From contig OY979730.1 in assembly GCA_963855995.1 (NCBI GenBank), forward strand, positions 7,975,300-8,039,299: 64,000 nt of DNA, written 5' to 3'. This document shows, in pieces, positions 1-51,450 of the stretch; the stretch's first letter is position 1; every line of letters starts with the position of its first letter. The DNA is from Muricea muricata. Taxonomy: Eukaryota; Cnidaria; Anthozoa; Malacalcyonacea; Plexauridae. A model generated the notes under the pieces. That model ran no database searches and had not been told where the DNA came from. It saw only the letters and a program-made list of their open reading frames with translations. The position numbers were made by a program, and so were the translations under genes.

Positions 1-130
1 ATCCAGATGATCAATCGTGAGGAAGTGAACTCTGTTGATGAAAAGTGCACAAAACGTCAATATCTTAATGTTTTATGTTGAATTGAAGTGCTTTGAATAT
101 TGCTTGGGTGATTCTGACACGTGATATTGC
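1..130 (+). repeat. Inverted repeat R, copy at window edge
   Basis: Bases 1-130 match 4440-4556 in reverse complement with roughly 85-90% identity, including the run GGAAGTGAACTCTG. The two copies bracket a 4.3 kb block holding the Penelope-like and Tc1-like remnants. Homology continues outward past 4556 and, in the mirrored right arm, past 51450, so R is at least 300 bp long and is cut by the window start. Confidence 0.7.
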
Positions 131-848
131 TATTTATTTTGGAACCATTTATCATGGTAAGTCTCGTGTGCTTAAACATTTTAATCTCATGGACAGGCAG
201 ATAGAAGAAAAAAATATTTTGGGACAATTCACATTAGGCTTTTTCATGTACCTTTAGGTCTATCAAGTGCATTTCTGGATGTTGACCATGCTCAAATTGC
301 TTGTGTGCTCCCCTATAGAACCCAAGTTATTGCTGCTTCAAAGTGTACAAAAAGGATAAAATGTTGCAAAATTTCTGGGAACCAATCCGAATATATATTT
401 TCAAAGACTCTTAACTCAGTAATATTGAATAAAATCTTGTTGGCAGGAGTCCACAAGAAATTTGAACGAATCCAACATCCGGAAATGCATTTGTGAGGTA
501 CTAGTAAAAGCCAAAATGGAATCATCCCATGAAACAGTAAGTCTTTGTCATTTTCATCCCTTTATCTGCCAGTCAAATAATGATGAACTGTGTTAAATTT
601 AAAGTCCTGTTTGGCTAAATTACTCTAGTTGTATTCTTGTTTGCCCAGTTTGAATAAATTCTTGTTAGTGCTTGCTATCACAATTATTGTATTTAAAAGG
701 AATTTTAGCAGGAATTTTACAAGTATGGCGTTAACTGTAAGCGCGGGCTATTTAAATTAAACTTACTATGCGTCAGCAAAAATTACGTGAGCAAATTAAT
801 TTAACGATTACGTTACAAGTTCTCTGCTGTTATAATTGTTCAGCGGTA

Positions 849-1175
849 TTAAATGAACAACTGCAGATTTCTGCTTGCCTTTAGTCCATTATTTAATATG
901 GATTTGCGTCTTTTGATGTGTAATGCTTCTTTGTAGAGTAATAGATTCCAGTTATTGGATGAGTCTATGATTTTTGAGTTGATCATTACGAATTTTGTCA
1001 GTTCATTGTTAGTTTTACTGTCCAAATAGTTGGTGTCATGACAAGAATTTAAATGTTTGTTGACAGCGCTTTCTTGGTCTTTGTAAGCGTGTTCTTTCGC
1101 CCGTTCTAGTAGAGTCCTGTCAGTTTTACCAATGTAGCTACTATTACATTTAGGACAAGTAAATTCGTAGACAAC
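849..1175 (-). pseudogene. Penelope-like element GIY-YIG endonuclease domain (left arm)
   Basis: Mirror copy of 50276-50602. On the minus strand this is the C-terminal endonuclease of a Penelope-like retroelement: a CPKC zinc-knuckle-like pair, then SSYIGKT, which is the YIG half of GIY-YIG, and a conserved YKEALHIKRR-like helix near the end. It lies directly downstream of the RT-derived segment at 1176-1644. Confidence 0.8.
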
Positions 1176-1644
1176 ATTGGATTTGTTTTGTTTAGGAACC
1201 TAATCTTTGGTGTTAGTAAACAAGTTTAGTTTGGTTGTTGTTATTCTCGTTTTAATTTGTACGTTAACGTTAAGACAACGTTAAAGTTTCTTTTTGAAGC
1301 CACGTAGTAGTTGTTCACCTCTTGTACCAATATGTGGCATTTCTAACCATAATATTGGTCGATTGTCATTGGTTTCTGTCTTGTTGTTGTCCTCGTTGCT
1401 TGTAGATTGGTGTTGTTTGAAGCGTTTTATTAGTAAAGAGACAAGTCAGACAACATGTTTGGGATAGCCATTCCAAGAAGCAATTTTCTTTAACAAATTG
1501 CAGTTCTTGTGAAAGTTTGGTAGGTGAACAGATTTTATGAATGCGACTGAGGAGAGAGCGAATCCAAGCAATACGATGTTTCCATGGTACAAAGCTGTCA
1601 AAATGTGTGTATTGTCCTGTAAATGTACGTTTCCGACATTTTGA
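1176..1644 (-). pseudogene. Penelope-like element, RT C-terminal/linker remnant (left arm)
   Basis: Minus-strand reading gives RKRTFTGQYTHFDSFVPWKH followed by a helix-rich stretch, as at the end of Penelope-type reverse transcriptases just before the linker to the endonuclease. The catalytic YADD part is absent. The frame is interrupted before the endonuclease by a frameshift and stops (one a TAG just upstream of the endonuclease), so this is a dead fragment. The segment at 1645-1881 repeats part of it in the opposite direction. Confidence 0.7.
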
Positions 1645-1881
1645 CAACGAGGACAAGAACGAGACAGAAACCAATGACAATCGACCCATATTATGGTTAG
1701 AAATGCCATATATTGGTACAAGAGGTGAACAGCTATTACGTGGCTTCAAAAAGAAACTTTTACGTTGTCTTAACGTTAACGTACAAATTAAAACGAGAAT
1801 AACAACAACCAAACTAAACCTGTTTACTAACACCAAAGATAAGTTCCTAAACAAAACAAATCCAATGTTGTCTAACTCTAC
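1645..1881 (+). repeat. Inverted duplicate of the Penelope linker region (left arm)
   Basis: About 230 bp that repeat, in opposite orientation, the linker section of the adjacent Penelope-like remnant. Both copies encode the stretch WLEMPYIGTRGEQLLRGF or a near variant with H for Y. The result is a fold-back arrangement within the element. Mirror copy at 49570-49806. Confidence 0.75.
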
Positions 1882-1889
1882 CTGAGTTA

Positions 1890-1980
1890 ACTAAGGTAAC
1901 TCTAGTCTACTAGTAAGGCAGACTAGAGTTTCTTGTAGTTAACTAAGGTAAGACATAGTAGACTAGACTAGACTTACCTT
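1890..1980. repeat. Short palindromic cluster
   Basis: AT-rich stretch with repeated ACTAGAGT / ACTCTAGT and TTAACTAAGGTA motifs in both orientations, able to fold into small hairpins. No gene. It sits beside the inverted linker copy of the Penelope-like remnant. Confidence 0.5.
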
Positions 1981-2159
1981 GTGCGCACGACATGTGGAGT
2001 TACCTAATGTTAACCATAATAACTAGAAAACAGAGAACTATAAAGTTACGAAAACTGGGATTAGTATAAAGTACTGTAAGTATCTAGTACTATTTTATAT
2101 TTAGTATGCTCACCTTCTACTAACTATACTGATAGTTAGTGTACATCATTATTATAGTT

Positions 2160-2225
2160 ATTGCACATCTATACGGCTCCAGGAATTGAACCTGGAAACC
2201 TAATTAGGTCCACTCTAATTAGGTC
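2160..2225 (-). repeat. tRNA-like T-arm remnant
   Basis: On the minus strand a T-arm of the form CCAGG-TTCAATT-CCTGG is seen, with the Pol III B-box GGTTCAATTCC, followed by an acceptor-like tail. No D-arm or A box is recognisable upstream; two direct copies of GGACCTAATTAG are there instead. It is probably a truncated tRNA-derived SINE rather than a tRNA gene. Mirror copy at 49226-49291. Confidence 0.5.
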
Positions 2226-2480
2226 CCCTCCAGGGTCATTTTTTTGTTAAAACATGGTAATGGTCACAGGCGTGACATAACAAAACGTAGGTAGAAAAAC
2301 TAGTAATAAGGTTACATGCGCGACATAACAAAACAGTAGAAACTATAGCAATAAGGTTATATGCGTGGCATAACAAAATATTTCAAAATATTGGGCGCTT
2401 AACGAAAATTTGATGGCAAATGACTTTGGCAAACCGTACAATATGATAGTATTTCATCTTGACATCTTTTGATGGATATA

Positions 2481-3508
2481 CAGGGGGAGGACCGAAAAAA
2501 GTGGCCCCCTATGAAGATAGGGTTTTTAGACTATAATTGTGTAAAGCGTGCGGAAAACGTATAGAAATTCATAAACAGGACTGTACAATTACCAAACATG
2601 ACCGAAGGACTAACACTTTTGAACCTCAAGTGTAATTTTCATCACACAAACAGATAAATAATAGTATGTTTTGTGATTAAATTGAATAGTTCAAATGGCT
2701 TCCCATCAACCGTTGCTGCAGTTGTTTGGCGGTATTAAAAACGTTTTCACGTAATGAACACGTTAACAACTCAACATTACGTCACATTTGTACAATTTAC
2801 AATGCCATTGTCACATTAACTTAATTTCTCGTTATCGTGTTGTGTCTTATTTTCAGTACTTTGTTGGCATTCCCTTCGATTTAATAACAGCTTTGCATCT
2901 ACTACCCATGCTCTACACAAGTTTTTTCAAGTATTCGTCATTTATTTCGTTCTATGCAGTTTTAAGAATTTGGAAAAGTTCATCTTCATTCTTTGGTTTT
3001 CTATTTTTAGTCTTACGATTCATTTCAGACCATAAATTTTCAATAGGGTTTAAATCTGGTGACTGAGCTGGCCATCGCATGACATCAATCTTCTTATTTG
3101 CAAGATATTTGGAAACAACTCCACTTGTGTGTTTGGGATCGTTGCGATCGTTGAACTTTTCCAAATTCTTAAAACTGCATGCAACGAAATAAATGACGAA
3201 TACTTGAAAAAACTTGTGGAGTGCATGGGTAGTAGATGCAAAGCTGTTATTAAATCGAAGGGAATGCCTTCAGCAACGGTTGATGGGAAGCCATTTGAAC
3301 TATTCAATTTAATCACAAAACATACTATTATTTATCTGTTTGTGTGATGAAAATTACACTTGAGGTTCAAAAGTGTTAGTCCTTCGGTCATGTTTGGTAA
3401 TTGTACAGTCCTGTTTATGAATTTCTCTACGTTTTCCGCACGCTTTACAAAATTATAGTCTAAAAACCCTATCTTCATAGGGGGCCACTTTTTTCGGTCC
3501 TCCCCCTG
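2481..3508 (-). mobile_element. Tc1-like fold-back element (left arm)
   Basis: A 1028 bp element bounded by perfect CAGGGGGAGGACCG ends and flanked by TA on both sides (2479-2480, 3509-3510), the Tc1/mariner target duplication. The inverted repeats are very long: about 2481-2715 plus 2866-2980 pair with about 3163-3508. The left repeat is interrupted by about 150 unrelated bases. The loop carries the end of a Tc1 transposase. A diverged empty-site copy of the surrounding sequence at about 20930-21250 lacks the element, which supports these ends. Confidence 0.9.
2952..3164 (-). pseudogene. Tc1 transposase C-terminal fragment (left arm)
   Basis: Minus-strand translation contains NDPKHTS, then WPAQSPDLNPIENLW, the hallmark end of the DD34E catalytic domain of Tc1-like transposases. 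The N-terminal DNA-binding half and the first catalytic Asp are absent. The residue expected to be the second catalytic Asp (normally two before NDPKH's D) reads Arg, at the junction with the inverted copy. The sequence ends ELFQILKTA, and the same C-terminal segment is repeated on the opposite strand at 3129-3347. Not functional. Confidence 0.88.
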
Positions 3509-3790
3509 TATGGCTAGTGATTCACTTCTTAACTCGATATCAATTATTTCCATCTTGTTCTCTCATTGGTTGGTGGTTGGTGTATTCACTTTTTACAAGT
3601 TGATACCTTTTGAAAAAATGAACAATTACGACGTTTACAAAACTATTTGCAAGATAAGCAAAGAAAACAACGTTATTTAATAAGCTTTAGAGAGGAGGAC
3701 TAAAATAGATAATTACTGAGGCCGAGGGTATCGTTCGATATAATCGCAACCAGCTCAGAAGCCCGAGGCTAAACTGCAATACAGGGTGTA

Positions 3791-4005
3791 TAGACCACTT
3801 GCAGTTACGTCACACGTCGCGTTGCCATCCGCCATATTGGAGGCAAATTTTGTTGTGTGAAATGTCAACAAATGCAAAAAGCACAGTTAAGCACAGTTGC
3901 AATTCAAAAATGAACATACATTCACCATATTTCATTAAAAAACACGTACGCCGCGCGTATTAATATTGTGTTTGAAAAATACACATTTTGTTTGTGGTCT
4001 ATTTT
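3791..4005. mobile_element. MITE with TAGACCACTTGC ends, one end deleted (left arm)
   Basis: Begins TAGACCACTTGCAGTTACGT and ends in GTGGTCTA. In the mirror copy (47387-47663) the other terminal repeat is longer, reading GCAAGTGGTCTA outward and preceded by GTGACGTCACGC. The left copy lacks 61 bp of that terminal repeat. The body encodes nothing. Confidence 0.75.
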
Positions 4006-4439
4006 TAAACATACAGCAATAATTTTTTTAGAGTTGGAAAGACCAGACATTTAGCTTTTACATGTCACTGTCCATTGTTAAATTCAGCAAATACGATTTA
4101 GATAAAAATTGCTCATCGAAATCGCTTTTTCTTACCCGTTGAGAACTTAGTAAAAATCTGTTGAAATTTATGATCCATTTAGGAATTAAAATTGACAAAT
4201 TTTAGCTTAGATAGTAAAAATTAATGCATCTAATTAGCCACGGTGATTTTTTCTCGTAACAGATCAGTTATTAATGGCATTTTGTTTTCTGAGGTAAAAA
4301 TTAACGATTTTGACCGGTTATTTCTATTTGATTCGTATTTGTATTTTTTCAAAACATAAACATAGTCACTCATTGTGGAAATCAAGTTCCACGGTTTTTT
4401 GTGACAAGAAAATAAATAGCCATATATAGCAAACAATAT

Positions 4440-4750
4440 TAAATAGCAGCCAAACAATATTCAAAGCACTTCAATTCAAAATAAAACATGAAAAATATTG
4501 ACCTTCTGTGCACTTTCCATCATCAGAGTTCACTTCCTCATGATCGATCATCTGGATAAGCCTTTGCCCTAACTTTCAACGCACTGTACAGATCTACAAA
4601 AAGGTCAAAATATATGAGCAAAAAAAATTTTGTTTTTGTTAAGGGGGCATATATATTACTGTGTTTAGCTTTGATCAAGGGCAGTGCAACCACAACAGTA
4701 CTGTACATAACAATTAATGTGCACACATGCTATCTAACCCTGCCAAATTC
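4440..4750 (-). repeat. Inverted repeat R, internal copy
   Basis: Partner of the repeat at the window edge. The outward part (about 4557-4750) aligns with 51451-51640 beyond the right arm: both contain ACTTTCAAC, GTAGATCTACAAAAA-like and GTGCACACAT-like stretches. This links the unmirrored flank to a repeat family inside the arms. The mirror copy is at about 46640-46950. Confidence 0.65.
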
Positions 4751-4751
4751 C

Positions 4752-5025
4752 CAGCCTCATACCCAGGCACTTTTAGTCATTAATAAAAGTGTCAGTGTTA
4801 CATATACAGACCAATTGCAGATTAAGCATGCATGCAAGTATGTTTTCATTTTCTCCTCCACTTCATAACTGGACAACTTTTGATTCTTATGTTATTAACT
4901 ACACTGTAATGTTACTGCAATACGATTCTTATGCGCTTGCTCAATTTGCAACTGATCTGTATATGTAACAGTAGTAACACTGGTTGAAATGATGAACTTT
5001 TCGTAAAAGCACCTGGGTACGAGGC
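4752..5025. repeat. Imperfect fold-back repeat
   Basis: The outer segments CAGCCTCATACCCAGG-like and CCTGGGTACGAGGCTG pair, as do two copies of GTTACATATACAGA / TCTGTATATGTAAC nearer the centre. It is an old, diverged fold-back of about 270 bp. Mirror copy at about 46365-46638. Confidence 0.6.
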
Positions 5026-5429
5026 TGTATGACTTGACAAGAAGAGTTTGAATCACAGTCACAGTTAAAAAGCGTTCCAAAGGGTTTACTTTTTTATACA
5101 CCCTGTAGTAAACCATATTTGTAGAACTAAAGTTATTTGATTCATGCATTGTTTGGTAGACATGCATTTTTATATAGATTTTTATCGACCAATAATATCC
5201 AAATTTGGTTCCAACAATTATTGTGATAAATGCTAAAATATTTCAAATGTTTACTTCTGAAATGATACCGTTATTAAAAGTTTATGTTATATTCATTTCA
5301 AATATGTTTTTATTTAAAAGTTTATATTATACAGTAATCATTTCAAACACATCGTACTATTTATTTCAATATTTATTCAACTCAATCATTGCACTACATA
5401 TTTAATGCTGTGGGCAGCACTATTTTTTG

Positions 5430-6500
5430 TTTAACTTGTCAATTCCCATGGGAATTGAATTTTTAATGAAATGGGGCCACGCGTAAATTTTTTAAACAAA
5501 TAATTGAAAAGAATTTCTAAAATCACAATTTGAATAACAATAAAAATAGATTAACTACCACACACTACACTCGTTCAAATAGCAATGCAAGAAAAGAGAA
5601 CACGGGAGAAAAAGGACAAAGACAATGTTAAAAAAATTGCTATTCTCAAGATAAATCTTTATTCTTGCAGATAAATAATCATAAAACAACTAGCTAGGAG
5701 TGCATATATGTTGCAATCTTGACACAGAAGTGAAAGGTACAACATGTTATTTCATAGTTACAAATAAATATATGTTTCAAAGATATATTATAATAATAAT
5801 TTAAGCGGGCATTACGACTTATTTTGCAGGCTAAAACGAACAAATTATAGCGGGCTAAAATACAGTTTAATTTGTTTACATCAACAGGCAAATTGTTTTT
5901 CATCCGAGCGTTTTAAATACGATAAAACCCAATCTTTTTAGTGTATTAAATGACTTCAAATATGATAATTTTATACACATCTTGTCAGTTTGTTTGGTAA
6001 ACAATTTTCAATATAAATGTTGTATTAGCCAAGAAAATCGGAGCAAAAGTTTTGAAAAAATCTCCTCCACGGGTATGAAAGACTCCTTCAGGGGTATGTT
6101 CCCTTTATGTTCATGAATTATTACTCCGTTTTTGAGGAATAATTCTCACATGTTTTATATACGAGTGACTGTGCAATGGTGGAGTGAGGGTAACGAATGG
6201 AATGCAGGAGCTTAGGACTGAGGAAGACAGGTTTAAACTTATTAGGCAGGTAGTTGTAGGATCATTTTGACCTTGTGGATCAAATTTACATATTGCTTAA
6301 CGTTTGTTGTTTTATTTGTTTGATACATGCTCGGGCTGCTCTCAACAAAAGATCAACTTAGCAATTTGCATTTAGCATTTGCAGATTCATTCGCTAATTC
6401 TCATGGGAATTGAATTTTTAATTTAAACTGGTCACATGTACATTTTGTAAATAAATTTATATAAAAGTATTGGTAAAAATAATCAGGCAGTGAATTTTTG
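5430..6500. repeat. Dispersed repeat family containing CAATTCCCATGGGAATTG
   Basis: Two stretches of one family. At 5430-5640 the 18 bp perfect palindrome CAATTCCCATGGGAATTG is followed by a tail, and 6160-6480 carries a related body. The same family recurs in opposite orientation at about 16630-17390, where the palindrome is again followed by AATTTTTAAT and the GGAATGCAGGAGCTTAG-type stretch. Non-coding. The region 5640-6160 between them shows nothing recognisable. Confidence 0.6.
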
Positions 6501-6985
6501 TTCCATTTTTTGGAAACGTCAGTCATACTTTTAATACCTACCCTAACCTACCCTGTCAACCTTCCCCTATGGAAAGTAGTACATGGAGTGGATTGTTTGT
6601 GATAAAACCACCTCATCATCTGCATGTTTAATCAGTAAAATATGACAAAATCAAATCCACGGCGCTCCAGGATGCAAATTCAATAATTAATAAAAACAGG
6701 TGAAATGCCATTATTGATTGTTTGTTACTATTGTCCATATACTGTACAAGACTCGCTCAATTCAGAACATTACAACCGCCGTGGCTGCTATTTTCGGGAT
6801 TTTTTGCTGTCCTTAATGTTTCACACTATATGCAAATGCAGAAAAGCATATATGAAATGTCAAAAATAGGATAAATTAGGAGGGGAAATCAGACAAATAT
6901 CCTAAGGCTGGCAACTCTTTCACCACGTAAACTGACACACGTTTATACTTTTGCTTCAAACAAATAAAATAGGGTATAACTAATG

Positions 6986-8231
6986 GGAGAGTTATGAAAT
7001 GGAGAGTTATGTTGGAACCACGCCCAAACCACGCCCACCTTTCTAAACCACCACGCTCAGTTTGTTAACTCTCCCGATGTTTGCTTAAGCAGACATGAGA
7101 AAGTTATATTTCTACGTAACTCTTCTCTTGTCAACATTATAAAGATGTTAAAGAGTTATAATTTTTTCATACGAGAGTTATGATTTAGGAGAACTACACT
7201 ACAATACATTTGTTCTAATCACTACATTACTTTCTGTATATTACCCAACGCCAAAGCTTTCCTTCCTTCGCTTATGATTATCGCTGATTATCACTGATTT
7301 TAGCTTATGGTTATGTACACGTGATTGATGCTAGGTAAGTTTGAACAGGTTTTGAAGGATTTAAAAGGTTTTATTTAGCCTTTACCTGTATTTCCGGCGC
7401 ATTATATATTGTTTGTTTGGGGGACCTGTTTGTTTAATAGCTTTGTTGAAAGTTAAAACAATCATAAAAACTACCGAATATACCTGTTTATTTACCCGTA
7501 CTCCTAGCTAAAGTTTTCTGCTGTCAACTATCACTGTAAAGTGTTAGTATTATAGGTAATTATGCGGCCACCGGGCCAAGTCCGATTTGGCAAAATTTTA
7601 TCAAACATCTCGAGTACTATTAATCTATAATTGTACGAACAACATCGCATGATTACTTGTTTAATATTAGCATGACAAAATCGCATGTACCAACCTCACA
7701 ATTAGTATTAAAGCGCTTTATCCAGTTCTTGTAGATGATAATTCTCAGTGAAGACAATTATTACATTCCAGTCCTGCCAGACTTTTAGCGAAAATTTTGT
7801 GTTTTGTTTGTATCTTCTACAGGCATTCCGCTTTCTTAACAATTTTGTTTGTGTTTAAACTCGCCGATTCAATTTTACCACCATTTCGTAGTTTTGGAAA
7901 AATCATTAATCGAAATGCAGTGCAATTAATGAAATAATTGTATTCAACCAATCAGTAATTTTGTCATGCTAATAATAAACACCGAGCTCAAAACTCTCTT
8001 TATTTCCTCAATTGTGAGCACAGACAGTTATAAAAAATGATAACTCTCTAACATCTTCATAATGTTGATGAGAGAGAGTTACGTAAAAACATAACTCTCC
8101 CATGTTAATTCAGATAATAATCAGGAGAGTTAAGAAATTGGGTGTGGCTGTTTTAAAAAAGTGGGCGTGGTTCGGACATAACTCTCCGAAATCATAACTC
8201 TCCGAGATAACTCTCCACTTCATAACTCTCC
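6986..8231. mobile_element. Non-coding fold-back element with GGAGAGTTATG repeats (left arm)
   Basis: The ends read GGGAGAGTTATGAAATGGAG at the left and the matching complement at the right. Terminal repeats are about 230 bp and carry many subterminal copies of GAGAGTTA and the GCGTGG motif. The ~800 bp interior has no coding capacity that I can see. Repeated short subterminal motifs suggest transposase binding sites of a non-autonomous DNA element. Mirror copy at 43140-44385. Confidence 0.7.
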
Positions 8232-8285
8232 GTTCAGCCGGTCCCAATCAAAACGCCCGCGGAGGAGGTAGCTAGATACACATTA

Positions 8286-8665
8286 GGGACCTTACGATTT
8301 GTAGGACGGCAACGCGACGGCAACGGCAAGAAAACACTGTATGATATGTTCTTATAAAGGACACGAGTTTTTTAATATCAATAGTATTAGTGTAATACAT
8401 TTTAAAAAGTTGAGGACTTGAGTTACTGGTTTAGAATGAGTTCTACTAAACCGAATTTGCAATTCTACCGGCTGTATGCAATACGTCGGCGTTGTATACA
8501 GTACGGGAAAATATGTGATTTGCCGGTCTAAACAATACGAGAACCGCGTGTCCAATATTCAAATGAGTTGTTTACAACCGTAATTATTCATTTCTTTTCA
8601 ATTTACTCTTTGTCTTAAGACGTTGCCGTCGCGTTGTCGTTCTGTAAATCGTAAGGTCCCTAATA
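8286..8665. mobile_element. MITE GGGACC...GGTCCC, present only in the left arm
   Basis: Starts GGGACCTTACGATTTGTAGG and ends in the matching inverted sequence, with terminal repeats of about 43 bp that include CAACGCGACGGCAACG. The right arm at about 43091 reads straight across the site (ACACATTACCTTGG), so the insertion is about 380 bp. TA is present on both sides, consistent with a TA target duplication; a degenerate TTA cannot be excluded. No coding region. Confidence 0.88.
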
Positions 8666-9083
8666 CCTTGGATACCTCTTCTAAATTTCGATATAGTGTT
8701 CAGATAAAAACAACTGAGATTCCGAAATACCGAAATTTGCTCAATAAAATTTGTTCTTTGATAGAAATTTTCAGTGTAGATAGGCGGGATGCAAAGTGCC
8801 CAACAAACGTCATCTTCGGAAACAGCTTCAGCTAAGCAAGGCTAAGTTCCTATTGGCTGCTGTTGAATTCGTCTTTCTTCGGCGATTCCTCGTTCTCACC
8901 AGCCAATAGCAGCTTAGCAGAAGTTGCTTCCGATAGTGACGTTTGTAGGGCAATTTGCATCCCGCCTATCGACACGAAAAATTTCAATAAAAAACACTTT
9001 TTATTGAACAAATTTAAGTGTTTCCGAATCGTGTTTTTGTCTAAAAACTATCCTGAAATGTAGAAGAGATATTCAAGGTCATT
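8666..9083. mobile_element. Fold-back MITE around GATAGGCGGGATGCAAA (left arm)
   Basis: About 200 bp at each end are inverted copies: ACCTCTTCTAAATTTC pairs with GAAATGTAGAAGAGATA, and GATAGGCGGGATGCAAA pairs with its complement near 8950. The centre is TATTGGCTG-rich. The GGGACC MITE inserted right at its left edge. The conceptual peptides across it are by-products of the hairpin. Mirror copy at about 42671-43090. Confidence 0.7.
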
Positions 9084-9226
9084 TGTATCCAGTTTTTTTG
9101 CAGTAAATTGTATTAATTTTTTTCTTTGAAGCGTCTGTCAGTTTACTATGTTGAAAGAGTTGCCAGCCTCAGGATATTATAAATAATAATAATATGCACT
9201 GACGTGACGTGCGCTGGGATGCCTAT

Positions 9227-10202
9227 GGTATAGCTCGTTCAAAACAGCGTACTTAACCACCATGCACAACTCAGTTAATATTCTATACAACCACCATTCT
9301 TGGAAGTTGTGCAAAAAATCTTCAACCCATTCATAAGTTTAGACTCCTAACTGAATCACATGGAATATCTGTAGATGAAGGCGCAAAGGCGTTTCTATAA
9401 GATCATCTTTGAATTTGTACTGTCACACTTCAACGCGATCCCCGTCTTAAGGATGATCCGAACTTTTCATAGTGGGATTTACCCCTGGTGACCACGTTGG
9501 CTATTCCCTTTTTTCATATTTTACTAGAACGAAGTTGAGGGATATGACAGAAAGTCGTGTGGCATAAAAAACAACCCTATGGTGTATACTAAGCTGCTGT
9601 TCCTTTGTAATGGGTAAGTTTCTTCTTCCCGTAGTACATAAGACACAAAAAGCCATCATCAAAAACATATGATCAACATTGAAACATCTCATCATCGACT
9701 ATCACTGAGAAGATGAGCACGTTAATCTTGCCTAGATTAATGTACCTTCCGTGCCTTTTATCACCAGGCCCACCAAATTTCGCCATACAAAATGCATATA
9801 TCCGTGAAAAACTTGTTTTTTTATGCATGGCCAGGCAGGACGCCATTCATTATTATAAGTCCTTCCGCCATATACCTGGAATTTGTTTTAGCAATACATG
9901 AAAACAAATATCCAGCCTGATCTTCAGGGGCAAATCCAACTTAAAAAACATGGATCACCCTTAGGCGAGCGATCACGCAAACCGAAGGCAGTACAAATCT
10001 AAAGATGACCTTTAAAACGGCATTGTTGGTTTATACAAAGATATTCCACGTGATCCAGTTAAAAGTTGGACGATGTGAATAGATTGAAGATTTTTTCCAA
10101 CTTCGAAGAATGATGGTTGCATAAAATATTAACAGAGTTGTGCATGCTGGTCAAGTAGTTATAATGTTTACATTGACGCTGTTTTAAATTAACTATACCT
10201 AA
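9227..10202. mobile_element. Non-coding terminal-inverted-repeat element (left arm)
   Basis: Segment 9227-9480 is an inverted, roughly 80% identical copy of 9940-10202. Shared blocks include GTTGTGCA near 9306/10140, CTTCAACCCATTC-type sequence and GATCATCTTTGAA / GATGACCTTTAAA. The centre (9500-9935) has no recognised gene. Mirror copy at about 41552-42527. Confidence 0.65.
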
Positions 10203-10254
10203 CAGTAATAAACCGTCAAGCTTAATTTTCCCTTCAAATTTGGTCATGGCTTTA

Positions 10255-10680
10255 TAGGATACCCTAAAGGTCGAAATGTCGAGAGAGCACTGGGATAGAG
10301 TTACCACTGTGTTTTGTGTATTTCTCACTCACTGGGACTGTATCTACTTCACCAAATTTAGCTAAAGAGGGAGCGCGTAGCGCGACAATAAGCGTACTGT
10401 TTTGCTATATTAAAACTATTCTCACTCACTGGGACTGTACTTCACCAAATTTAGCTAAAGCGTGAGCCCGAAGGGCAAGTAATGATTGTCGCGCTACGCG
10501 CTCCCTCTTTAGCTAAATTTGGTGAAGTAGATACAGTCCCTAGTGAGTGAGAAATGTGACAACCCAAGAATGACTCGATATTGATAGTTATTATATGTAT
10601 GGGGATACGCAAAACACAGGCTAGGGCAACTCGGTCCCAGTGCTCTCTCGACATTTCGACCTTTAGGGTATCCTATAAAG
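10255..10680. repeat. Double fold-back with GCGCGTAGCGCGAC stem
   Basis: Outer repeats read ACCCTAAAGGTCGAAATGTC and its complement; inner repeats contain TTTAGCTAAAGAGGGAGCGC in both orientations, plus ACTCACTGGGACTGTA in direct copies. It could form a multi-branched cruciform. Non-coding. Mirror copy at about 41074-41499. Confidence 0.7.
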
Positions 10681-10849
10681 TCGTGACCCTTCAAATTTAT
10701 CCCATTTTGACATTTCCAATATGCTTTTCCTATAATGTGGAACACAAAGCCAAGCAAAAATCAGAATAATAATAATCAACAGAATTGAGTGAGTCTCGTA
10801 CAGTAAACTGTGGAAAAGAATAGTCAACAATCAATACTAGAATTTTGTT

Positions 10850-12200
10850 AAATATTGCAAAATATTTGGATTTGCATGTAAGTCTGGAATGCAGTGTAAT
10901 GACAAACCAATTTGTTTTGCCACTGATATAAACTTTGTTTTTTAATTGGGTATATAATTATGAATTTAGTCAAAATAGAAAATCCATGTTTTACAAACAG
11001 AATACTATGTTATCAAACTGCTTGAATAAAGAGCAATTTGTTTATGATGAATTTCAATTGACTGTATTTTATTTCATGTCAAAAGCCAGCAAAAAATGAA
11101 ATTGGATTGAAGAACATGCTTAGTTACAATGAGAAATTTGTCTTCTGTGCACAGTATTTTAAAAATTATAAGCAGCACTATCAGAAATTGCTGTCCAGCC
11201 AGTCCAGGCATTATATTGCCACTGTTCAATATAATAATTGTGAGTTTGTGACAGCAGGCAAAAGATATTTTCCCTAAAATGACCATTAACAACAGTTTAT
11301 CCAGGCAAGTGGTAAGGGAACCAGAAAAGTTATTCCTTTTTTAATAATTCCTTTTGTATGTTTTCACAAACTAATTTGGCCAAATATGAATACAATTATT
11401 ACTCCGCCTGCCGTAGGCGAGGCGGAGTTTTAAATTCGCCCCGTTTCTGTTTGTTTTTTTTTATTTTTTTTCGGTGTCAGAAGTCGGTGCAGCGCTCATG
11501 GGTGATACCGCTGGCACAAACCGCGTGAGCCGACCTAAACACGGCGTTTAAACTCAATTTCTAGCGAAATGTGTCAACAAAACACGCATTTAAACGTGCA
11601 TGCTAGAACATCTAAACCGCAAGAAGGTTTTACGTGCAAAGATTCTCATGCAAAATGCTTTAAAACGACAAATTCCAGTGATGTGTCGCGGTGAAGTTTT
11701 GAGAGCGTGTTTCCGTCATTTTCTGGTTTATTCCTACTTTTAAGGAAATTTAGAAATTTCTACACAAGAATCAAACGCAAATTCTACTGAAATATTTACA
11801 TACATACAAAATGAAGATCGGTGAAGGAACTTCGCAAAAATATTCATTTTTGTACTTTCGAACGGCGTTTTTCCTATGCTTTTGACTGAAAACACGACGA
11901 ACGACACTTGCCAGAGCAATTTGCGTGGCGCGTGGAATGACGTGAGCACGGGGACACAAAAATTGAGGTTATTGAGTGCGAGTTCCCTATCTGTATATAT
12001 CTGATCTGTGATACAGCTTCTTCTGAATCAGGAACAAGGAACTTGCTCGGAGCATGTCGACACAAAGTGGTAGTTTCGGCGTTCCTCGGAATTCGTCGGT
12101 TTCCGACGCTGCTCGAAGATTTTCCGAATACTATTTTTTCAAAATTTTTCTCTAGCTCGAAGATTTTGCTCCTTGAAAGTCCTCTAAATTTTCATGCATC
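10850..12200. other. AT-rich non-coding stretch with one GC-rich hairpin
   Basis: Nothing recognisable apart from a hairpin at 11401-11428, where ACTCCGCCTGCCG pairs with the GGCGAGGCGGAGT side, followed by a T-rich run. This resembles the terminal stem of a dispersed repeat. The arms differ here by small indels (about 9 bp near 11200 and 17 bp near 12130). Confidence 0.5.
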
Positions 12201-40913: not shown

Positions 40914-43900
40914 CTAGTATTGATTGTTGACTATTCTTTTCCACAGTTTACTGTGCGAGACTCACTCAATTCTGTTGATTATTATTATCCTGATTTTTGC
41001 TTGGCTTTGTGTTCCACATTATAGGAAAAGCATATTGGAAATGTCAAAATGGGATAAATTTGAAGGGTCACGACTTTATAGGATACCCTAAAGGTCGAAA
41101 TGTCGAGAGAGCACTGGGACCGAGTTGCCCTAGCCTGTGTTTTGCGTATCCCCATACATATAATAACTATCAATATCGAGTCATTCTTGGGTTGTCACAT
41201 TTCTCACTCACTAGGGACTGTATCTACTTCACCAAATTTAGCTAAAGAGGGAGCGCGTAGCGCGACAATCATTACTTGCCCTTCGGGCTCACGCTTTAGC
41301 TAAATTTGGTGAAGTACAGTCCCAGTGAGTGAGAATAGTTTTAATATAGCAAAACAGTACGCTTATTGTCGCGCTACGCGCTCCCTCTTTAGCTAAATTT
41401 GGTGAAGTAGATACAGTCCCAGTGAGTGAGAAATACACAAAACACAGTGGTAACTCTATCCCAGTGCTCTCTCGACATTTCGACCTTTAGGGTATCCTAT
41501 AAAGCCATGACCAAATTTGAAGGGAAAATTAAGCTTGACGGTTTATTACTGTTAGGTATAGTTAATTTAAAACAGCGTCAATGTAAACATTATAACTACT
41601 TGACCAGCATGCACAACTCTGTTAATATTTTATGCAACCATCATTCTTCGAAGTTGGAAAAAATCTTCAATCTATTCACATCGTCCAACTTTTAACTGGA
41701 TCACGTGGAATATCTTTGTATAAACCAACAATGCCGTTTTAAAGGTCATCTTTAGATTTGTACTGCCTTCGGTTTGCGTGATCGCTCGCCTAAGGGTGAT
41801 CCATGTTTTTTAAGTTGGATTTGCCCCTGAAGATCAGGCTGGATATTTGTTTTCATGTATTGCTAAAACAAATTCCAGGTATATGGCGGAAGGACTTATA
41901 ATAATGAATGGCGTCCTGCCTGGCCATGCATAAAAAAACAAGTTTTTCACGGATATATGCATTTTGTATGGCGAAATTTGGTGGGCCTGGTGATAAAAGG
42001 CACGGAAGGTACATTAATCTAGGCAAGATTAACGTGCTCATCTTCTCAGTGATAGTCGATAATGAGATGTTTCAATGTTGATCATATGTTTTTGATGATG
42101 GCTTTTTGTGTCTTATGTACTACGGGAAGAAGAAACTTACCCATTACAAAGGAACAGCAGCTTAGTATACACCATAGGGTTGTTTTTTATGCCACACGAC
42201 TTTCTGTCATATCCCTCAACTTCGTTCTAGTAAAATATGAAAAAAGGGAATAGCCAACGTGGTCACCAGGGGTAAATCCCACTATGAAAAGTTCGGATCA
42301 TCCTTAAGACGGGGATCGCGTTGAAGTGTGACAGTACAAATTCAAAGATGATCTTATAGAAACGCCTTTGCGCCTTCATCTACAGATATTCCATGTGATT
42401 CAGTTAGGAGTCTAAACTTATGAATGGGTTGAAGATTTTTTGCACAACTTCCAAGAATGATGGTTGTATAGAATATTAACTGAGTTGTGCATGGTGGTTA
42501 AGTACGCTGTTTTGAACGAGCTATACCATAGGCATCCCAGCGCACGTCACGTCAGTGCATATTATTATTATTTATAATATCCTGAGGCTGGCAACTCTTT
42601 CAACATAGTAAACTGACAGACGCTTCAAAGAAAAAAATTAATACAATTTACTGCAAAAAAACTGGATACAAATGACCTTGAATATCTCTTCTACATTTCA
42701 GGATAGTTTTTAGACAAAAACACGATTCGGAAACACTTAAATTTGTTCAATAAAAAGTGTTTTTTATTGAAATTTTTCGTGTCGATAGGCGGGATGCAAA
42801 TTGCCCTACAAACGTCACTATCGGAAGCAACTTCTGCTAAGCTGCTATTGGCTGGTGAGAACGAGGAATCGCCGAAGAAAGACGAATTCAACAGCAGCCA
42901 ACAGGAACTTAGCCTTGCTTAGCTGAAGCTGTTTCCGAAGATGACGTTTGTTGGGCACTTTGCATCCCGCCTATCTACACTGAAAATTTCTATCAAAGAA
43001 CAAATTTTATTGAGCAAATTTCGGTATTTTGGAATCTCAGTTGTTTTTATCTGAACACTATATCGAAATTTAGAAGAGGTATCCAAGGTAATGTGTATCT
43101 AGCTACCTCCTCCGCGGGCGTTTTGATTGGGACCGGCTGAACGGAGAGTTATGAAGTGGAGAGTTATCTCGGAGAGTTATGATTTCGGAGAGTTATGTCC
43201 GAACCACGCCCACTTTTTTAAAACAGCCACACCCAATTTCTTAACTCTCCTGATTATTATCTGAATTAACATGGGAGAGTTATGTTTTTACGTAACTCTC
43301 TCTCATCAACATTATGAAGATGTTAGAGAGTTATCATTTTTTATAACTGTCTGTGCTCACAATTGAGGAAATAAAGAGAGTTTTGAGCTCGGTGTTTATT
43401 ATTAGCATGACAAAATTACTGATTGGTTGAATACAATTATTTCATTAATTGCACTGCATTTCGATTAATGATTTTTCCAAAACTACGAAATGGTGGTAAA
43501 ATTGAATCGGCGAGTTTAAACACAAACAAAATTGTTAAGAAAGCGGAATGCCTGTAGAAGATACAAACAAAACACAAAATTTTCGCTAAAAGTCTGGCAG
43601 GACTGGAATGTAATAATTGTCTTCACTGAGAATTATCATCTACAAGAACTGGATAAAGCGCTTTAATACTAATTGTGAGGTTGGTACATGCGATTTTGTC
43701 ATGCTAATATTAAACAAGTAATCATGCGATGTTGTTCGTACAATTATAGATTAATAGTACTCGAGATGTTTGATAAAATTTTGCCAAATCGGACTTGGCC
43801 CGGTGGCCGCATAATTACCTATAATACTAACACTTTACAGTGATAGTTGACAGCAGAAAACTTCAGCTAGGAGTACGGGTAAATAAACAGGTATATTCGG

Positions 43901-44656
43901 TAGTTTTTATGATTGTTTTAACTTTCAACAAAGCTATTAAACAAACAGGTCCCCCAAACAAACAATATATAATGCGCCGGAAATACAGGTAAAGGCTAAA
44001 TAAAACCTTTTAAATCCTTCAAAACCTGTTCAAACTTACCTAGCATCAATCACGTGTACATAACCATAAGCTAAAATCAGTGATAATCAGCGATAATCAT
44101 AAGCGAAGGAAGGAAAGCTTTGGCGTTGGGTAATATACAGAAAGTAATGTAGTGATTAGAACAAATGTATTGTAGTGTAGTTCTCCTAAATCATAACTCT
44201 CGTATGTAATCATAACTCTTTAACATCTTTATAATGTTGACAAGAGAAGAGTTACGTAGAAATATAACTTTCTCATGTTTGCTTAAGCAAACATCGGGAG
44301 AGTTAACAAACTGAGCGTGGTGGTTTAGAAAGGTGGGCGTGGTTTGGGCGTGGTTCCAACATAACTCTCCATTTCATAACTCTCCCATTAGTTATACCCT
44401 ATTTTATTTGTTTGAAGCAAAAGTATAAACGTGTGTCAGTTTACGTGGTGAAAGAGTTGCCAGCCTTAGGATATTTGTCTGATTTCCCCTCCTAATTTAT
44501 CCTATTTTTGACATTTCATATATGCTTTTCTGCATTTGCATATAGTGTGAAACATTAAGGACAGCAAAAAATCCCGAAAATAGCAGCCACGGCGGTTGTA
44601 ATGTTCTGAATTGAGCGAGTCTTGTACAGTATATGGACAATAGTAACAAACAATCA
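40914..44656. repeat. Nested stack of fold-back elements (right arm)
   Basis: Mirror of 6715-10840. The only large difference is the empty site for the GGGACC MITE at about 43091. The GGAGAGTTATG element is at 43140-44385. Confidence 0.75.
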
Positions 44657-45939
44657 ATAATGGCATTTCACCTGTTTTTATTAATTATTGAATTTGCATC
44701 CTGGAGCGCCGTGGATTTGATTTTGTCATATTTTACTGATTAAACATGCAGATGATGAGGTGGTTTTATCACAAACAATCCACTCCATGTACTACTTTCC
44801 ATAGGGGAAGGTTGACAGGGTAGGTTAGGGTAGGTATTAAAAGTATGACTGACGTTTCCAAAAAATGGAACAAAAATTCACTGCCTGATTATTTTTACCA
44901 ATACTTTTATATAAATTTATTTACAAAATGTACATGTGACCAGTTTAAATTAAAAATTCAATTCCCATGAGAATTAGCGAATGAATCTGCAAATGCTAAA
45001 TGCAAATTGCTAAGTTGATCTTTTGTTGAGAGCAGCCCGAGCATGTATCAAACAAATAAAACAACAAACGTTAAGCAATATGTAAATTTGATCCACAAGG
45101 TCAAAATGATCCTACAACTACCTGCCTAATAAGTTTAAACCTGTCTTCCTCAGTCCTAAGCTCCTGCATTCCATTCGTTACCCTCACTCCACCATTGCAC
45201 AGTCACTCGTATATAAAACATGTGAGAATTATTCCTCAAAAACGGAGTAATAATTCATGAACATAAAGGGAACATACCCCTGAAGGCGTCTTTCATACCC
45301 GTGGAGGAGATTTTTTCAAAACTTTTGCTCCGATTTTCTTGGCTAATACAACATTTATATTGAAAATTGTTTACCAAACAAACTGACAAGATGTGTATAA
45401 AATTATCATATTTGAAGTCATTTAATACACTAAAAAGATTGGGTTTTATCGTATTTAAAACGCTCGGATGAAAAACAATTTGCCTGTTGATGTAAACAAA
45501 TTAAACTGTATTTTAGCCCGCTACAATTTGTTCGTTTTAGCCTGCAAAATAAGTCGTAATGCCCGCTTAAATTATTATTATAATATATCTTTGAACCATA
45601 TATTTATTTGTAACTATGAAATAACATGTTGTACCTTTCACTTCTGTGTCAAGATTGCAACATATATGCACTCCTAGCTAGTTGTTTTATGATTATTTAT
45701 CTGCAAGAATAAAGATTTATCTTGAGAATAGCAATTTTTTTAACATTGTCTTTGTCCTTTTTCTCCCGTGTTCTCTTTTCTTGCATTGCTATTTGAACGA
45801 GTGTAGTGTGTGGTAGTTAATCTATTTTTATTGTTATTCAAATTGTGATTTTAGAAATTCTTTTCAATTATTTGTTTAAAAAATTTACGCGTGGCCCCAT
45901 TTCATTAAAAATTCAATTCCCATGGGAATTGACAAGTTA

Positions 45940-45975
45940 AACAAAAAATAGGTACGCTACGCGTACATGTATCTG
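45940..45975. repeat. 19 bp right-arm-specific insert
   Basis: GGTACGCTACGCGTACATGT lies between AAAAAATA and ATCTGCCCAC; the left arm at about 5409-5428 lacks it. The inserted bases are largely palindromic (GTACGC...GCGTAC). Confidence 0.75.
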
Positions 45976-47386
45976 CCCACAGCATTAAATATGTAGTGCA
46001 ATGATTGAGTTGAATAAATATTGAAATAAATAGTACGATGTGTTTGAAATGATTACTGTATAATATAAACTTTTAAATAAAAACATATTTGAAATGAATA
46101 TAACATAAACTTTTAATAACGGTATCATTTCAGAAGTAAACATTTGAAATATTTTAGCATTTATCACAATAATTGTTGGAACCAAATTTGGATATTATTG
46201 GTCGATAAAAATCTATATAAAAATGCATGTCTACCAAACAATGCATGAATCAAATAACTTTAGTTCTACAAATATGGTTTACTACAGGGTGTATAAAAAA
46301 GTAAACCCTTTGGAACGCTTTTTAACTGTGACTGTGATTCAAACTCTTCTTGTCAAGTCATACAGCCTCGTACCCAGGTGCTTTTACGAAAAGTTCATCA
46401 TTTCAACCAGTGTTACTACTCTTACATATACAGATCAGTTGCAAATTGAGCAAGCGCATAAGAATCGTATTGCAGTAACATTACAGTGTAGTTAATAACA
46501 TAAGAATCAAAAGTTGTCCAGTTATGAAGTGGAGGAGAAAATGAAAACATACTTGCATGCATGCTTAATCTGCAATTGGTCTGTATATGTAACACTGACA
46601 CTTTTATTAATGACTAAAAGTGCCTGGGTATGAGGCTGGGAATTTGGCAGGGTTAGATAGCATGTGTGCACATTAATTGTTATGTACAGTACTGTTGTGG
46701 TTGCACTGCCCTTGATCAAAGCTAAACACAGTAATATATATGCCCCCTTAACAAAAACAAAATTTTTTTTGCTCATATATTTTGACCTTTTTGTAGATCT
46801 GTACAGTGCGTTGAAAGTTAGGGCAAAGGCTTATCCAGATGATCGATCATGAGGAAGTGAACTCTGATGATGGAAAGTGCACAGAAGGTCAATATTTTTC
46901 ATGTTTTATTTTGAATTGAAGTGCTTTGAATATTGTTTGGCTGCTATTTAATATTGTTTGCTATATATGGCTATTTATTTTCTTGTCACAAAAAACCGTG
47001 GAACTTGATTTCCACAATGAGTGACTATGTTTATGTTTTGAAAAAATACAAATACGAATCAAATAGAAATAACCGGTCAAAATCGTTAATTTTTACCTCA
47101 GAAAACAAAATGCCATTAATAACTGATCTGTTACGAGAAAAAATCACCGTGGCTAATTAGATGCATTAATTTTTACTATCTAAGCTAAAATTTGTCAATT
47201 TTAATCCCTAAATGGATCATAATTTTCAACAGATTTTTACTAAGTTCTCAACGGGTAAGAAAATGCGATTTCGATGAGCAATTTTTATCTAAATCGTATT
47301 TGCTGAATTTAACAATGGACAGTGACATGTAAAAGCTAAATATCTGGTCTTTCCAACTCTAGAAAAATTATTGCTGTATGTTAAAA

Positions 47387-47663
47387 ATAGACCACTTGCG
47401 CGTGACGTCACACTCAACGATTTCGTAATTTAGCGGCCATGTTGGGGGCAAATTTAAAAACAAAATGTGTATTTTTCAAACACAATATTAATACACGCGG
47501 CGTACGTGTTTTTTAATGAAATATGGTGAATGTATGTTCATTTTTGAATTGCAACTGTGCTTAACTGTGCTTTTTGCATTTGTTGACATTTCACACAACA
47601 CAATTTGCCTCCAATATGGCGGATGGCAACGCGACGTGTGACGTAACTGCAAGTGGTCTATGC
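47387..47663. mobile_element. MITE with TAGACCACTTGC ends, complete copy (right arm)
   Basis: Complete version of 3791-4005: both ends read TAGACCACTTGC inward, each followed closely by a GTCACAC-type box, with GGCCATGTTGGGGGCAAATT on one side and its CCTCCAATATGGC relative on the other. TA-flanked. Confidence 0.8.
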
Positions 47664-47942
47664 ACCCTGTATTGCAGTTTAGCCTCGGGCTTCTGAGCTG
47701 GTTGCGATTATATCGAACGATACCCTCGGCCTCAGTAATTATCTATTTTAGTCCTCCTCTCTAAAGCTTATTAAATAACGTTGTTTTCTTTGCTTATCTT
47801 GCAAATAGTTTTGTAAACGTCGTAATTGTTCATTTTTTCAAAAGGTATCAACTTGTAAAAAGTGAATACACCAACCACCAACCAATGAGAGAACAAGATG
47901 GAAATAATTGATATCGAGTTAAGAAGTGAATCACTAGCCATA

Positions 47943-48970
47943 CAGGGGGAGGACCGAAAAAAGTGGCCCCCTATGAAGATAGGGTTTTTAGACTATAATT
48001 TTGTAAAGCGTGCGGAAAACGTAGAGAAATTCATAAACAGGACTGTACAATTACCAAACATGACCGAAGGACTAACACTTTTGAACCTCAAGTGTAATTT
48101 TCATCACACAAACAGATAAATAATAGTATGTTTTGTGATTAAATTGAATAGTTCAAATGGCTTCCCATCAACCGTTGCTGAAGGCATTCCCTTCGATTTA
48201 ATAACAGCTTTGCATCTACTACCCATGCACTCCACAAGTTTTTTCAAGTATTCGTCATTTATTTCGTTGCATGCAGTTTTAAGAATTTGGAAAAGTTCAA
48301 CGATCGCAACGATCCCAAACACACAAGTGGAGTTGTTTCCAAATATCTTGCAAATAAGAAGATTGATGTCATGCGATGGCCAGCTCAGTCACCAGATTTA
48401 AACCCTATTGAAAATTTATGGTCTGAAATGAATCGTAAGACTAAAAATAGAAAACCAAAGAATGAAGATGAACTTTTCCAAATTCTTAAAACTGCATAGA
48501 ACGAAATAAATGACGAATACTTGAAAAAACTTGTGTAGAGCATGGGTAGTAGATGCAAAGCTGTTATTAAATCGAAGGGAATGCCAACAAAGTACTGAAA
48601 ATAAGACACAACACGATAACGAGAAATTAAGTTAATGTGACAATGGCATTGTAAATTGTACAAATGTGACGTAATGTTGAGTTGTTAACGTGTTCATTAC
48701 GTGAAAACGTTTTTAATACCGCCAAACAACTGCAGCAACGGTTGATGGGAAGCCATTTGAACTATTCAATTTAATCACAAAACATACTATTATTTATCTG
48801 TTTGTGTGATGAAAATTACACTTGAGGTTCAAAAGTGTTAGTCCTTCGGTCATGTTTGGTAATTGTACAGTCCTGTTTATGAATTTCTATACGTTTTCCG
48901 CACGCTTTACACAATTATAGTCTAAAAACCCTATCTTCATAGGGGGCCACTTTTTTCGGTCCTCCCCCTG
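47943..48970 (+). mobile_element. Tc1-like fold-back element (right arm)
   Basis: Mirror of 2481-3508 with the same CAGGGGGAGGACCG ends, TA flanks and length. Confidence 0.9.
48287..48499 (+). pseudogene. Tc1 transposase C-terminal fragment (right arm)
   Basis: Identical in translation to the left-arm fragment at 2952-3164: NDPKHTS, WPAQSPDLNPIENLW and the ELFQILKTA end. It lacks the DNA-binding half and the first catalytic Asp, and has Arg in place of the second. Confidence 0.88.
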
Positions 48971-49569
48971 TATATCCATCAAAAGATGTCAAGATGAAAT
49001 ACTATCATATTGTACGGTTTGCCAAAGTCATTTGCCATCAAATTTTCGTTAAGCGCCCAATATTTTGAAATATTTTGTTATGCCACGCATATAACCTTAT
49101 TGCTATAGTTTCTACTGTTTTGTTATGTCGCGCATGTAACCTTATTACTAGTTTTTCTACCTACGTTTTGTTATGTCACGCCTGTGACCATTACCATGTT
49201 TTAACAAAAAAATGACCCTGGAGGGGACCTAATTAGAGTGGACCTAATTAGGTTTCCAGGTTCAATTCCTGGAGCCGTATAGATGTGCAATAACTATAAT
49301 AATGATGTACACTAACTATCAGTATAGTTAGTAGAAGGTGAGCATACTAAATATAAAATAGTACTAGATACTTACAGTACTTTATACTAATCCCAGTTTT
49401 CGTAACTTTATAGTTCTCTGTTTTCTAGTTATTATGGTTAACATTAGGTAACTCCACATGTCGTGCGCACAAGGTAAGTCTAGTCTAGTCTACTATGTCT
49501 TACCTTAGTTAACTACAAGAAACTCTAGTCTGCCTTACTAGTAGACTAGAGTTACCTTAGTTAACTCAG

Positions 49570-49806
49570 GTAGAGTTAGACAACATTGGATTTGTTTTGT
49601 TTAGGAACTTATCTTTGGTGTTAGTAAACAGGTTTAGTTTGGTTGTTGTTATTCTCGTTTTAATTTGTACGTTAACGTTAAGACAACGTAAAAGTTTCTT
49701 TTTGAAGCCACGTAATAGCTGTTCACCTCTTGTACCAATATATGGCATTTCTAACCATAATATGGGTCGATTGTCATTGGTTTCTGTCTCGTTCTTGTCC
49801 TCGTTG
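49570..49806 (-). repeat. Inverted duplicate of the Penelope linker region (right arm)
   Basis: Minus-strand copy of the linker segment that appears on the plus strand at about 50062-50283. Mirror of 1645-1881. Confidence 0.75.
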
Positions 49807-50275
49807 TCAAAATGTCGGAAACGTACATTTACAGGACAATACACACATTTTGACAGCTTTGTACCATGGAAACATCGTATTGCTTGGATTCGCTCTCTCC
49901 TCAGTCGCATTCATAAAATCTGTTCACCTACCAAACTTTCACAAGAACTGCAATTTGTTAAAGAAAATTGCTTCTTGGAATGGCTATCCCAAACATGTTG
50001 TCTGACTTGTCTCTTTACTAATAAAACGCTTCAAACAACACCAATCTACAAGCAACGAGGACAACAACAAGACAGAAACCAATGACAATCGACCAATATT
50101 ATGGTTAGAAATGCCACATATTGGTACAAGAGGTGAACAACTACTACGTGGCTTCAAAAAGAAACTTTAACGTTGTCTTAACGTTAACGTACAAATTAAA
50201 ACGAGAATAACAACAACCAAACTAAACTTGTTTACTAACACCAAAGATTAGGTTCCTAAACAAAACAAATCCAAT
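49807..50275 (+). pseudogene. Penelope-like element, RT C-terminal/linker remnant (right arm)
   Basis: Starts at RKRTFTGQYTHFDSFVPWKH and stays open to about 50085, then continues in another frame (ILWLEMPHIGTRGEQLLRGF) with stops, one of them a TAG at 50249-50251 just upstream of the endonuclease. In Penelope-like elements this region joins the RT thumb to the GIY-YIG domain. The catalytic RT motifs upstream are lost and are replaced by the inverted copy at 49570-49806. Confidence 0.7.
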
Positions 50276-50602
50276 GTTGTCTACGAATTTACTTGTCCTA
50301 AATGTAATAGTAGCTACATTGGTAAAACTGACAGGACTCTACTAGAACGGGCGAAAGAACACGCTTACAAAGACCAAGAAAGCGCTGTCAACAAACATTT
50401 AAATTCTTGTCATGACACCAACTATTTGGACAGTAAAACTAACAATGAACTGACAAAATTCGTAATGATCAACTCAAAAATCATAGACTCATCCAATAAC
50501 TGGAATCTATTACTCTACAAAGAAGCATTACACATCAAAAGACGCAAATCCATATTAAATAATGGACTAAAGGCAAGCAGAAATCTGCAGTTGTTCATTT
50601 AA
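50276..50602 (+). pseudogene. Penelope-like element GIY-YIG endonuclease domain (right arm)
   Basis: An open frame of 108 codons plus stop. It begins VVYEFTCPKCNSSYIGKT: the VYEF strand stands where GIY is expected, the CPKC pair is the Cys box typical of Penelope endonucleases, and YIGKT is the YIG motif. The catalytic Arg follows in LLERAKEHA. The C-terminus has LLYKEALHIKRRKS, with the conserved Glu of the fold. In the parent element it nicks target DNA to prime reverse transcription. Here it has no start codon and is separated from the RT remnant by a stop, so it is a fossil. The preserved frame suggests the decay is not very old. Confidence 0.85.
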
Positions 50603-51450
50603 TACCGCTGAACAATTATAACAGCAGAGAACTTGTAACGTAATCGTTAAATTAATTTGCTCACGTAATTTTTGCTGACGCATAGTAAGTTTAATTTAAA
50701 TAGCCCGCGCTTACAGTTAACGCCATACTTGTAAAATTCCTGCTAAAATTCCTTTTAAATACAATAATTGTGATAGCAAGCACTAACAAGAATTTATTCA
50801 AACTGGGCAAACAAGAATACAACTAGAGTAATTTAGCCAAACAGGACTTTAAATTTAACACAGTTCATCATTATTTGACTGGCAGATAAAGGGATGAAAA
50901 TGACAAAGACTTACTGTTTCATGGGATGATTCCATTTTGGCTTTTACTAGTACCTCACAAATGCATTTCCGGATGTTGGATTCGTTCAAATTTCTTGTGG
51001 ACTCCTGCCAACAAGATTTTATTCAATATTACTGAGTTAAGAGTCTTTGAAAATATATATTCGGATTGGTTCCCAGAAATTTTGCAACATTTTATCCTTT
51101 TTGTACACTTTGAAGCAGCAATAACTTGGGTTCTATAGGGGAGCACACAAGCAATTTGAGCATGGTCAACATCCAGAAATGCACTTGATAGACCTAAAGG
51201 TACATGAAAAAGCCTAATGTGAATTGTCCCAAAATATTTTTTTCTTCTATCTGCCTGTCTATGAGATTAAAATGTTTAAGCACATGAGACTTACCATGAT
51301 AAATGGTTCCAAAATAAATAGCAATATTACGTGTCAGAATCACCCAAGCAATATTCAAAGCACTTCAATTCAACATAAAAAATTAAGATATTGACGTTTT
51401 GTGCACTTTTCATCAACAGAGTTCACTTCCTCACGATTGATCATCTGGAT

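Follow-up and report, generated by a model that had tools for sequence, protein, structure and literature searches.

A near-identical inverted duplication with arms of at least ~25 kb and a one-sided breakpoint in the Muricea muricata assembly: a candidate for fold-back copying

In human fold-back inverted duplications that contain a disomic spacer, the inverted copy adjoins a short single-copy segment; one of the two junctions is native and the other new, and the sequences meeting at the join have little homology or none (Hermetz et al. 2014, PMC3907307). Microhomology of 2–8 bp was reported at 13 of the joins, repeats of ~300 bp at 3 and insertions at 5. A comparable anatomy was found in a 64,000-bp stretch of DNA from Muricea muricata (GenBank assembly GCA_963855995.1, contig OY979730.1, positions 7,975,300–8,039,299 of the forward strand), which is referred to below as the window and in whose own numbering all positions are given. 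In this window, a spacer of 575 bp is flanked by two nearly identical inverted arms of at least ~25 kb, together forming a palindrome. Unlike the de novo human cases, the arms have diverged by 0.33%, and the human spacers are 766 bp or more in length (PMC3907307).

Several other systems share parts of this anatomy. Origin-dependent inverted-repeat amplification (ODIRA), which involves template switching and later erosion of the palindrome, likewise yields a palindromic junction at which inverted copies flank a spacer, but predicts an inverted triplication and a second palindromic junction, whereas the window shows one junction only (PMC10766186). The palindromes of the human Y chromosome are also large, highly identical inverted repeats; their arms are >99.9% identical via gene conversion, compared with 99.67% for the arms described here, in whose scanned reading frames no host gene was recognised (PMC3723533). 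Among invertebrates, the first Adineta vaga assembly contained collinear inverted copies on one contig, possibly allelic (PMC7749112, PMC7953838), and the large palindromes on Bs1 and Bs3 of Botryllus schlosseri have faced the same question of artefact (PMC12448946). The former were detected as collinear gene blocks and the latter by gene synteny, the B. schlosseri palindromes being judged real from depth, duplicated BUSCO genes and CRAQ, whereas in M. muricata the junction itself is readable. A later, independent and fragmented A. vaga assembly, with a low N50 according to its authors, showed a single palindrome against several in the first genome (PMC7749112), and the invertebrate precedent, A. 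vaga on one side and B. schlosseri on the other, cuts both ways. Finally, chimeras formed during multiple displacement amplification show an inverted join, an unduplicated intervening segment and short complementarity; their arms stem from one molecule and should match near the join, which the present arms do not (PMC1855051).

Self-BLASTN of the window returned four collinear minus-strand pieces pairing 1–25086 with 25648–51450, and base-level alignment placed the start of the exact mirror at 25078 and 25654 (Table 1). An inverted duplication is truly present in the assembled sequence, and chance is irrelevant at such a length. These results confirm the initial annotation of this stretch, which had described a ~51-kb palindrome with ~25-kb arms and had placed the spacer correctly. 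Position 51450, taken there as the end of the palindrome, mirrors the window edge and is no observed end; base 1 pairs with 51450 and the similarity reaches the edge without decay. Either the palindrome extends upstream of the window or the contig begins at window base 1, and ~25 kb is a minimum for the arm length. There are no N's in the window.

The two junctions of the spacer differ in character. Diverged copies of common local repeats populate the spacer and the inner arms, and parts of the spacer have only older relatives within the window (~76–89% identical), all located at 24230–26501. The left junction lies within an old repeat unit, whose 18 arm-side bases match a related copy at 16 positions (binomial chance ~4e-8 at a fixed register, an optimistic value given that the register was chosen by BLAST). 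Because this repeat spans the left junction while another copy ends exactly at 25653, the left junction most likely retains the original order and 25653/25654 is probably the new adjacency, a call based on related repeat copies and not on ancestral sequence. The reverse assignment, with a native right and a new left junction, was rejected, since it is the left junction that a repeat crosses and the right one at which a repeat is cut. Copies of a further repeat, here called X, form an older inverted pair flanking the centre. Apart from ACAAC, an imperfect 5-mer that lies within ten bases of the join and may be due to chance, no inverted overlap was found there; the nearest longer inverted similarity is the 320-bp X pair, which is only 85% identical and lies away from the join. 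A collapse on an inverted repeat shared at the join was likewise rejected, no such repeat being found there.

Base-level alignment of the arms revealed 80 substitutions in 24,638 aligned columns (0.325%), of which 50 are transitions and 30 transversions. In addition, we identified 25 indels, three larger (1026, 380, and 62 bp) and 22 smaller, some of the latter being adjacent pieces of a single complex change. Indel differences had also been noted initially, together with a ~1% difference between the arms; the latter figure is too high for substitutions and is reached only with gaps counted in the manner of BLAST (98.98–99.83% identity per piece). Sixteen indels are of 5 bp or less, and because these include changes other than homopolymer length changes alongside the latter, the arm differences are unlike sequencing error alone. 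The differences nearest the centre were observed at 25693, 25699, and 25910, the first two lying 39 and 45 bp away from the join; seven substitutions fall in the innermost 2 kb. The scattered substitutions from 39 bp outwards and the transposon insertions confined to one arm agree with the initial view of two independent DNA copies and no duplicated read.

The largest insertion, found in the right arm only, contains part of a reverse transcriptase of the non-long-terminal-repeat (non-LTR) type, with an RVT_1 match covering profile positions 117–205 only. The left arm has a clean empty site opposite this insertion, and no clear target-site duplication was seen by eye. Among the best 120 of 1552 matches, the relatives with a named organism are from the stony corals Acropora palmata, Oculina patagonica, and Stylophora pistillata (49–51% identity), while the closest among the matches listed are the ENA proteins P0001 (82% over 76% of the query) and P0010 (97% over 52%). 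The 380-bp insertion in the left arm is interpreted as a miniature DNA transposon based on its terminal inverted repeats.

The substitutions are clustered along the arms (in 1-kb bins, the dispersion is 1.69; p = 0.024 from 2000 shuffles with uniform placement), which suggests some form of recombination, arm-to-arm or allele-to-allele. A run of nearly 3.6 kb without any substitution or indel was also observed (Table 1). This run is compatible with the arm-to-arm gene conversion proposed in the initial annotation, but allelic patches fit it equally well.

On balance, we lean towards a genuine large inverted duplication, present in the animal, whose arms measure 25 kb or more and which formed by fold-back copying. 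DNA carrying the left arm and spacer would have broken, or its replication would have stalled, inside the repeat at 25653. With 575 bases left as a loop, the 3' end would then have turned back and settled beside 25078, where a few imperfectly complementary bases were available; copying outwards along the left arm would have produced the right arm. The copies would subsequently have diverged by substitutions, small indels, and the insertion of a retroposon into the right arm and of a miniature DNA transposon into the left, with recent conversion between the arms as a possible source of the nearly 3.6-kb identical stretch. Consistent with such an origin, an unduplicated spacer lies between the inverted copies, and one apparently native junction, crossed by a repeat that enters the arm for only 18 bases, is paired with one apparently new junction. 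The left arm contains 11 inverted pairs of at least 60 nt, nine of them with <800 nt between the copies (a raw count without a chance control). The palindrome is probably without function.

A number of observations weigh against this origin. Beyond the 18 arm-side bases, the repeat at the left junction matches at only 5 of 18 positions; a second repeat copy (26120–26137) matches the 18 bases at only 11 positions, ten of them within the last 11 bases, and the register of the match was the choice of BLAST. The join at 25653/25654 has 0 bp of strict microhomology, and a 5-mer as good as the imperfect one found there occurs in 3.1% of random pairs (20,000 draws). Because a search of the unique flank (51451 onward) for copies of the spacer repeats was negative, the native continuation past 25653 is absent from the window. 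Private transposons and a divergence of 0.33% are expected for two alleles of an outbred invertebrate, and the left arm reaches the first base of the window, as if a shorter haplotig had been fused to the contig. Whole-genome amplification makes inverted chimeras of like anatomy (406 of 475 chimeras were inverted; PMC1855051), reviews regard long, short-spacer palindromes as unstable and seldom present in natural genomes (PMC10766186), and the spacer is shorter than the human range (PMC3907307).

If the palindrome is real, it would be a large gene-poor invertebrate palindrome with its birth point still legible, and a natural test of both the origin of fold-back duplications and the rate of arm divergence outside sex chromosomes. 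An artefact would call for caution in palindrome claims from heterozygous genomes. In either case, the junction test used here, in which an old repeat spans one side and breaks at the other, works without reads and is applicable to further assembly palindromes.

Among the alternatives, a head-to-head joining of two alleles during assembly is a serious possibility, although we do not consider it the probable one. The arms would then be haplotypes, and the sequence from 51451 onward would be the true neighbour of both. The level of divergence, the one-arm transposons and the patchy substitution density all look allelic, although paralogous arms fit them too, and a left arm extending to window base 1 is as would be expected. 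Jaron et al. (PMC7953838) caution that palindromes may result from erroneous scaffolding. The anatomy of the centre argues against it, as the join is sharp, lies inside a repeat, and has neither an inverted overlap for joining by graph or overlap nor an N gap. Scaffold joins normally leave N's. Overlap and k-mer assemblers could make such a join only from inverted sequence shared at that point, where none was found, which disfavours this route. A haplotype misjoin would presumably require a gap-filled scaffold or a chimeric molecule that links two different haplotypes at one locus. What remains is either a real, diverged fold-back duplication or a haplotype join by a rarer route (inter-haplotype chimera, gap filling or allele-mixing polishing). 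The artefact alternative raised initially is retained as a haplotype join, while a plain overlap misjoin is disfavoured by the junction. Of the papers returned by a literature search on head-to-head haplotig palindromes, none was on point by title.

A variant of the fold-back origin, which we consider rather unlikely, is that the palindrome arose at a hot spot where an older inverted pair of ~75–85% identity already stood, the arms having been partly homogenised by conversion. The arms already bear several small inverted duplications with short spacers. Were this the case, large palindromes would recur at the same sites in this genome, with neither genes nor sex linkage maintaining them.

It is improbable that an inverted molecule formed at the centre in vitro, during amplification or library preparation, and was extended by the assembler with reads from either haplotype. 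Such chimeras do resemble the present structure, in that >85% of amplification chimeras are inverted with an intervening deletion and >70% of their junctions have 2–21 nt of complementarity (PMC1855051). However, both sides of such a molecule derive from a single template, yet the arms here differ from 39 bp outwards, with seven substitutions in the innermost 2 kb, which would require allele mixing during polishing. Normal reads should also outvote a single chimera.

Least probable is an ampliconic palindrome of the sex-chromosome type, in which gene conversion keeps the arms alike and thereby preserves genes, as had been suggested by comparison in the initial annotation. The long run without arm differences is in its favour. 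Against it, no host gene was recognised in the arm open reading frames (ORFs) scanned, the arm identity is below that of the human Y arms (PMC3723533), and nothing in the window indicates sex linkage. The Pfam scan covered 122 of the 178 ORFs of at least 55 aa listed for 25087–64000 (right arm and flank), a range in which short exons may be missed, and no sign of an ampliconic gene family was seen among the ORFs scanned. The initial annotation is thus partly supported, its observation being sound and its interpretation half right. A duplicated read or missed-adapter hairpin was rejected, since the arms differ from 39 bp outwards; a combined-term literature search on missed-adapter palindromic reads gave no match.

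Table 1. Features of the palindrome in the window (window coordinates).
Feature	Position	Strand	Basis or remark
Left arm	1..25078	-	Reverse complement of right arm, exits window at base 1; self-BLASTN and base-level alignment
Spacer, asymmetric, 575 bp	25079..25653	.	Bounded by exact mirror starts 25078 and 25654
Right arm	25654..51450	+	51450 is the mirror of window base 1, no observed boundary; self-BLASTN and alignment
Old repeat unit across left junction	25061..25115	+	47/62 to 25831-25892; similarity lost before 25061
Repeat X in spacer	25278..25595	+	271/320 (85%) to 26185-26501 (direct) and 24230-24546 (inverted)
Partial repeat cut at right junction	25602..25653	+	45/52 to 25438-25489; following 18 bases 1/18
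Right-arm-only 1026-bp insertion: partial non-LTR reverse transcriptase, TCTA-repeat tail, 5' end missing	36886..37911	+	Alignment, Pfam
Left-arm-only 380-bp insertion, 44-bp terminal inverted repeats 91% (BLAST)	8286..8665	-	Single copy in window
Right-arm-only 62 bp	47396..47457	+	Alignment
Difference-free run, no substitution or indel between arms	47663..51259	+	3598 bp between flanking substitutions, p = 0.001 against uniform placement (2000 shuffles)
Tc1/mariner-type transposase fragment (DDE_3)	48182..48499	+	Pfam; mirrored in left arm
GIY-YIG endonuclease relic	50252..50602	+	20.8 bits, Pfam cut-off 22.6; mirrored 849-1199 (-)

Five families were matched in the 122 ORFs, namely reverse transcriptase (two ORFs), Tc1-type DDE, GIY-YIG, ALKBH8_N, and PTPLA. 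Apart from one low-complexity hit below the cut-off, the matches are to domains of transposons. The ALKBH8_N match is below the cut-off and lies within a reverse transcriptase ORF, and the PTPLA match (40256–40447, minus strand) was dropped as a phenylalanine-rich stretch (20.1 bits against a cut-off of 27). Sixty scans of other ORFs taken singly returned no families, and the GIY-YIG ORF had no matches in PDB. Scans of the window for tRNA genes and a search of Rfam were both negative, and a 26-base pattern from the arm had no matches in viral contigs. The mRNA export factor RAE1 has a single exon-like match in the unique flank (60178–60486, minus strand, 39 residues, E 8e-15), and no further RAE1 exons were found nearby by motif grep.

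Several smaller repeats were also observed in the window. Nested inverted duplications are present at 2478–3511 (mirrored at 47940–48973), with outer arms of 244 bp (99%) separated by 546 bp and inner arms of 117 bp (97%) separated by 169 bp; by eye, the ORFs of this region read as the C-terminus of a Tc1 transposase in both orientations. A further inverted pair of 212 bp (93%) is located at 1187–1398 and 1645–1856, with 246 bp between the copies. In the unique flank, a 382-bp tandem duplication (54995–55759, 97%) overlaps ORFs resembling a remnant of a non-LTR reverse transcriptase, the RVT_1 match for 54870–55100 being below the cut-off. A nearly spacerless hairpin at 57810–58073 has arms of 126 bp (89%) with 12 bp between them, and 58868–59323 consists of 21.7 copies of a 21-bp tandem repeat in which several frames are open.

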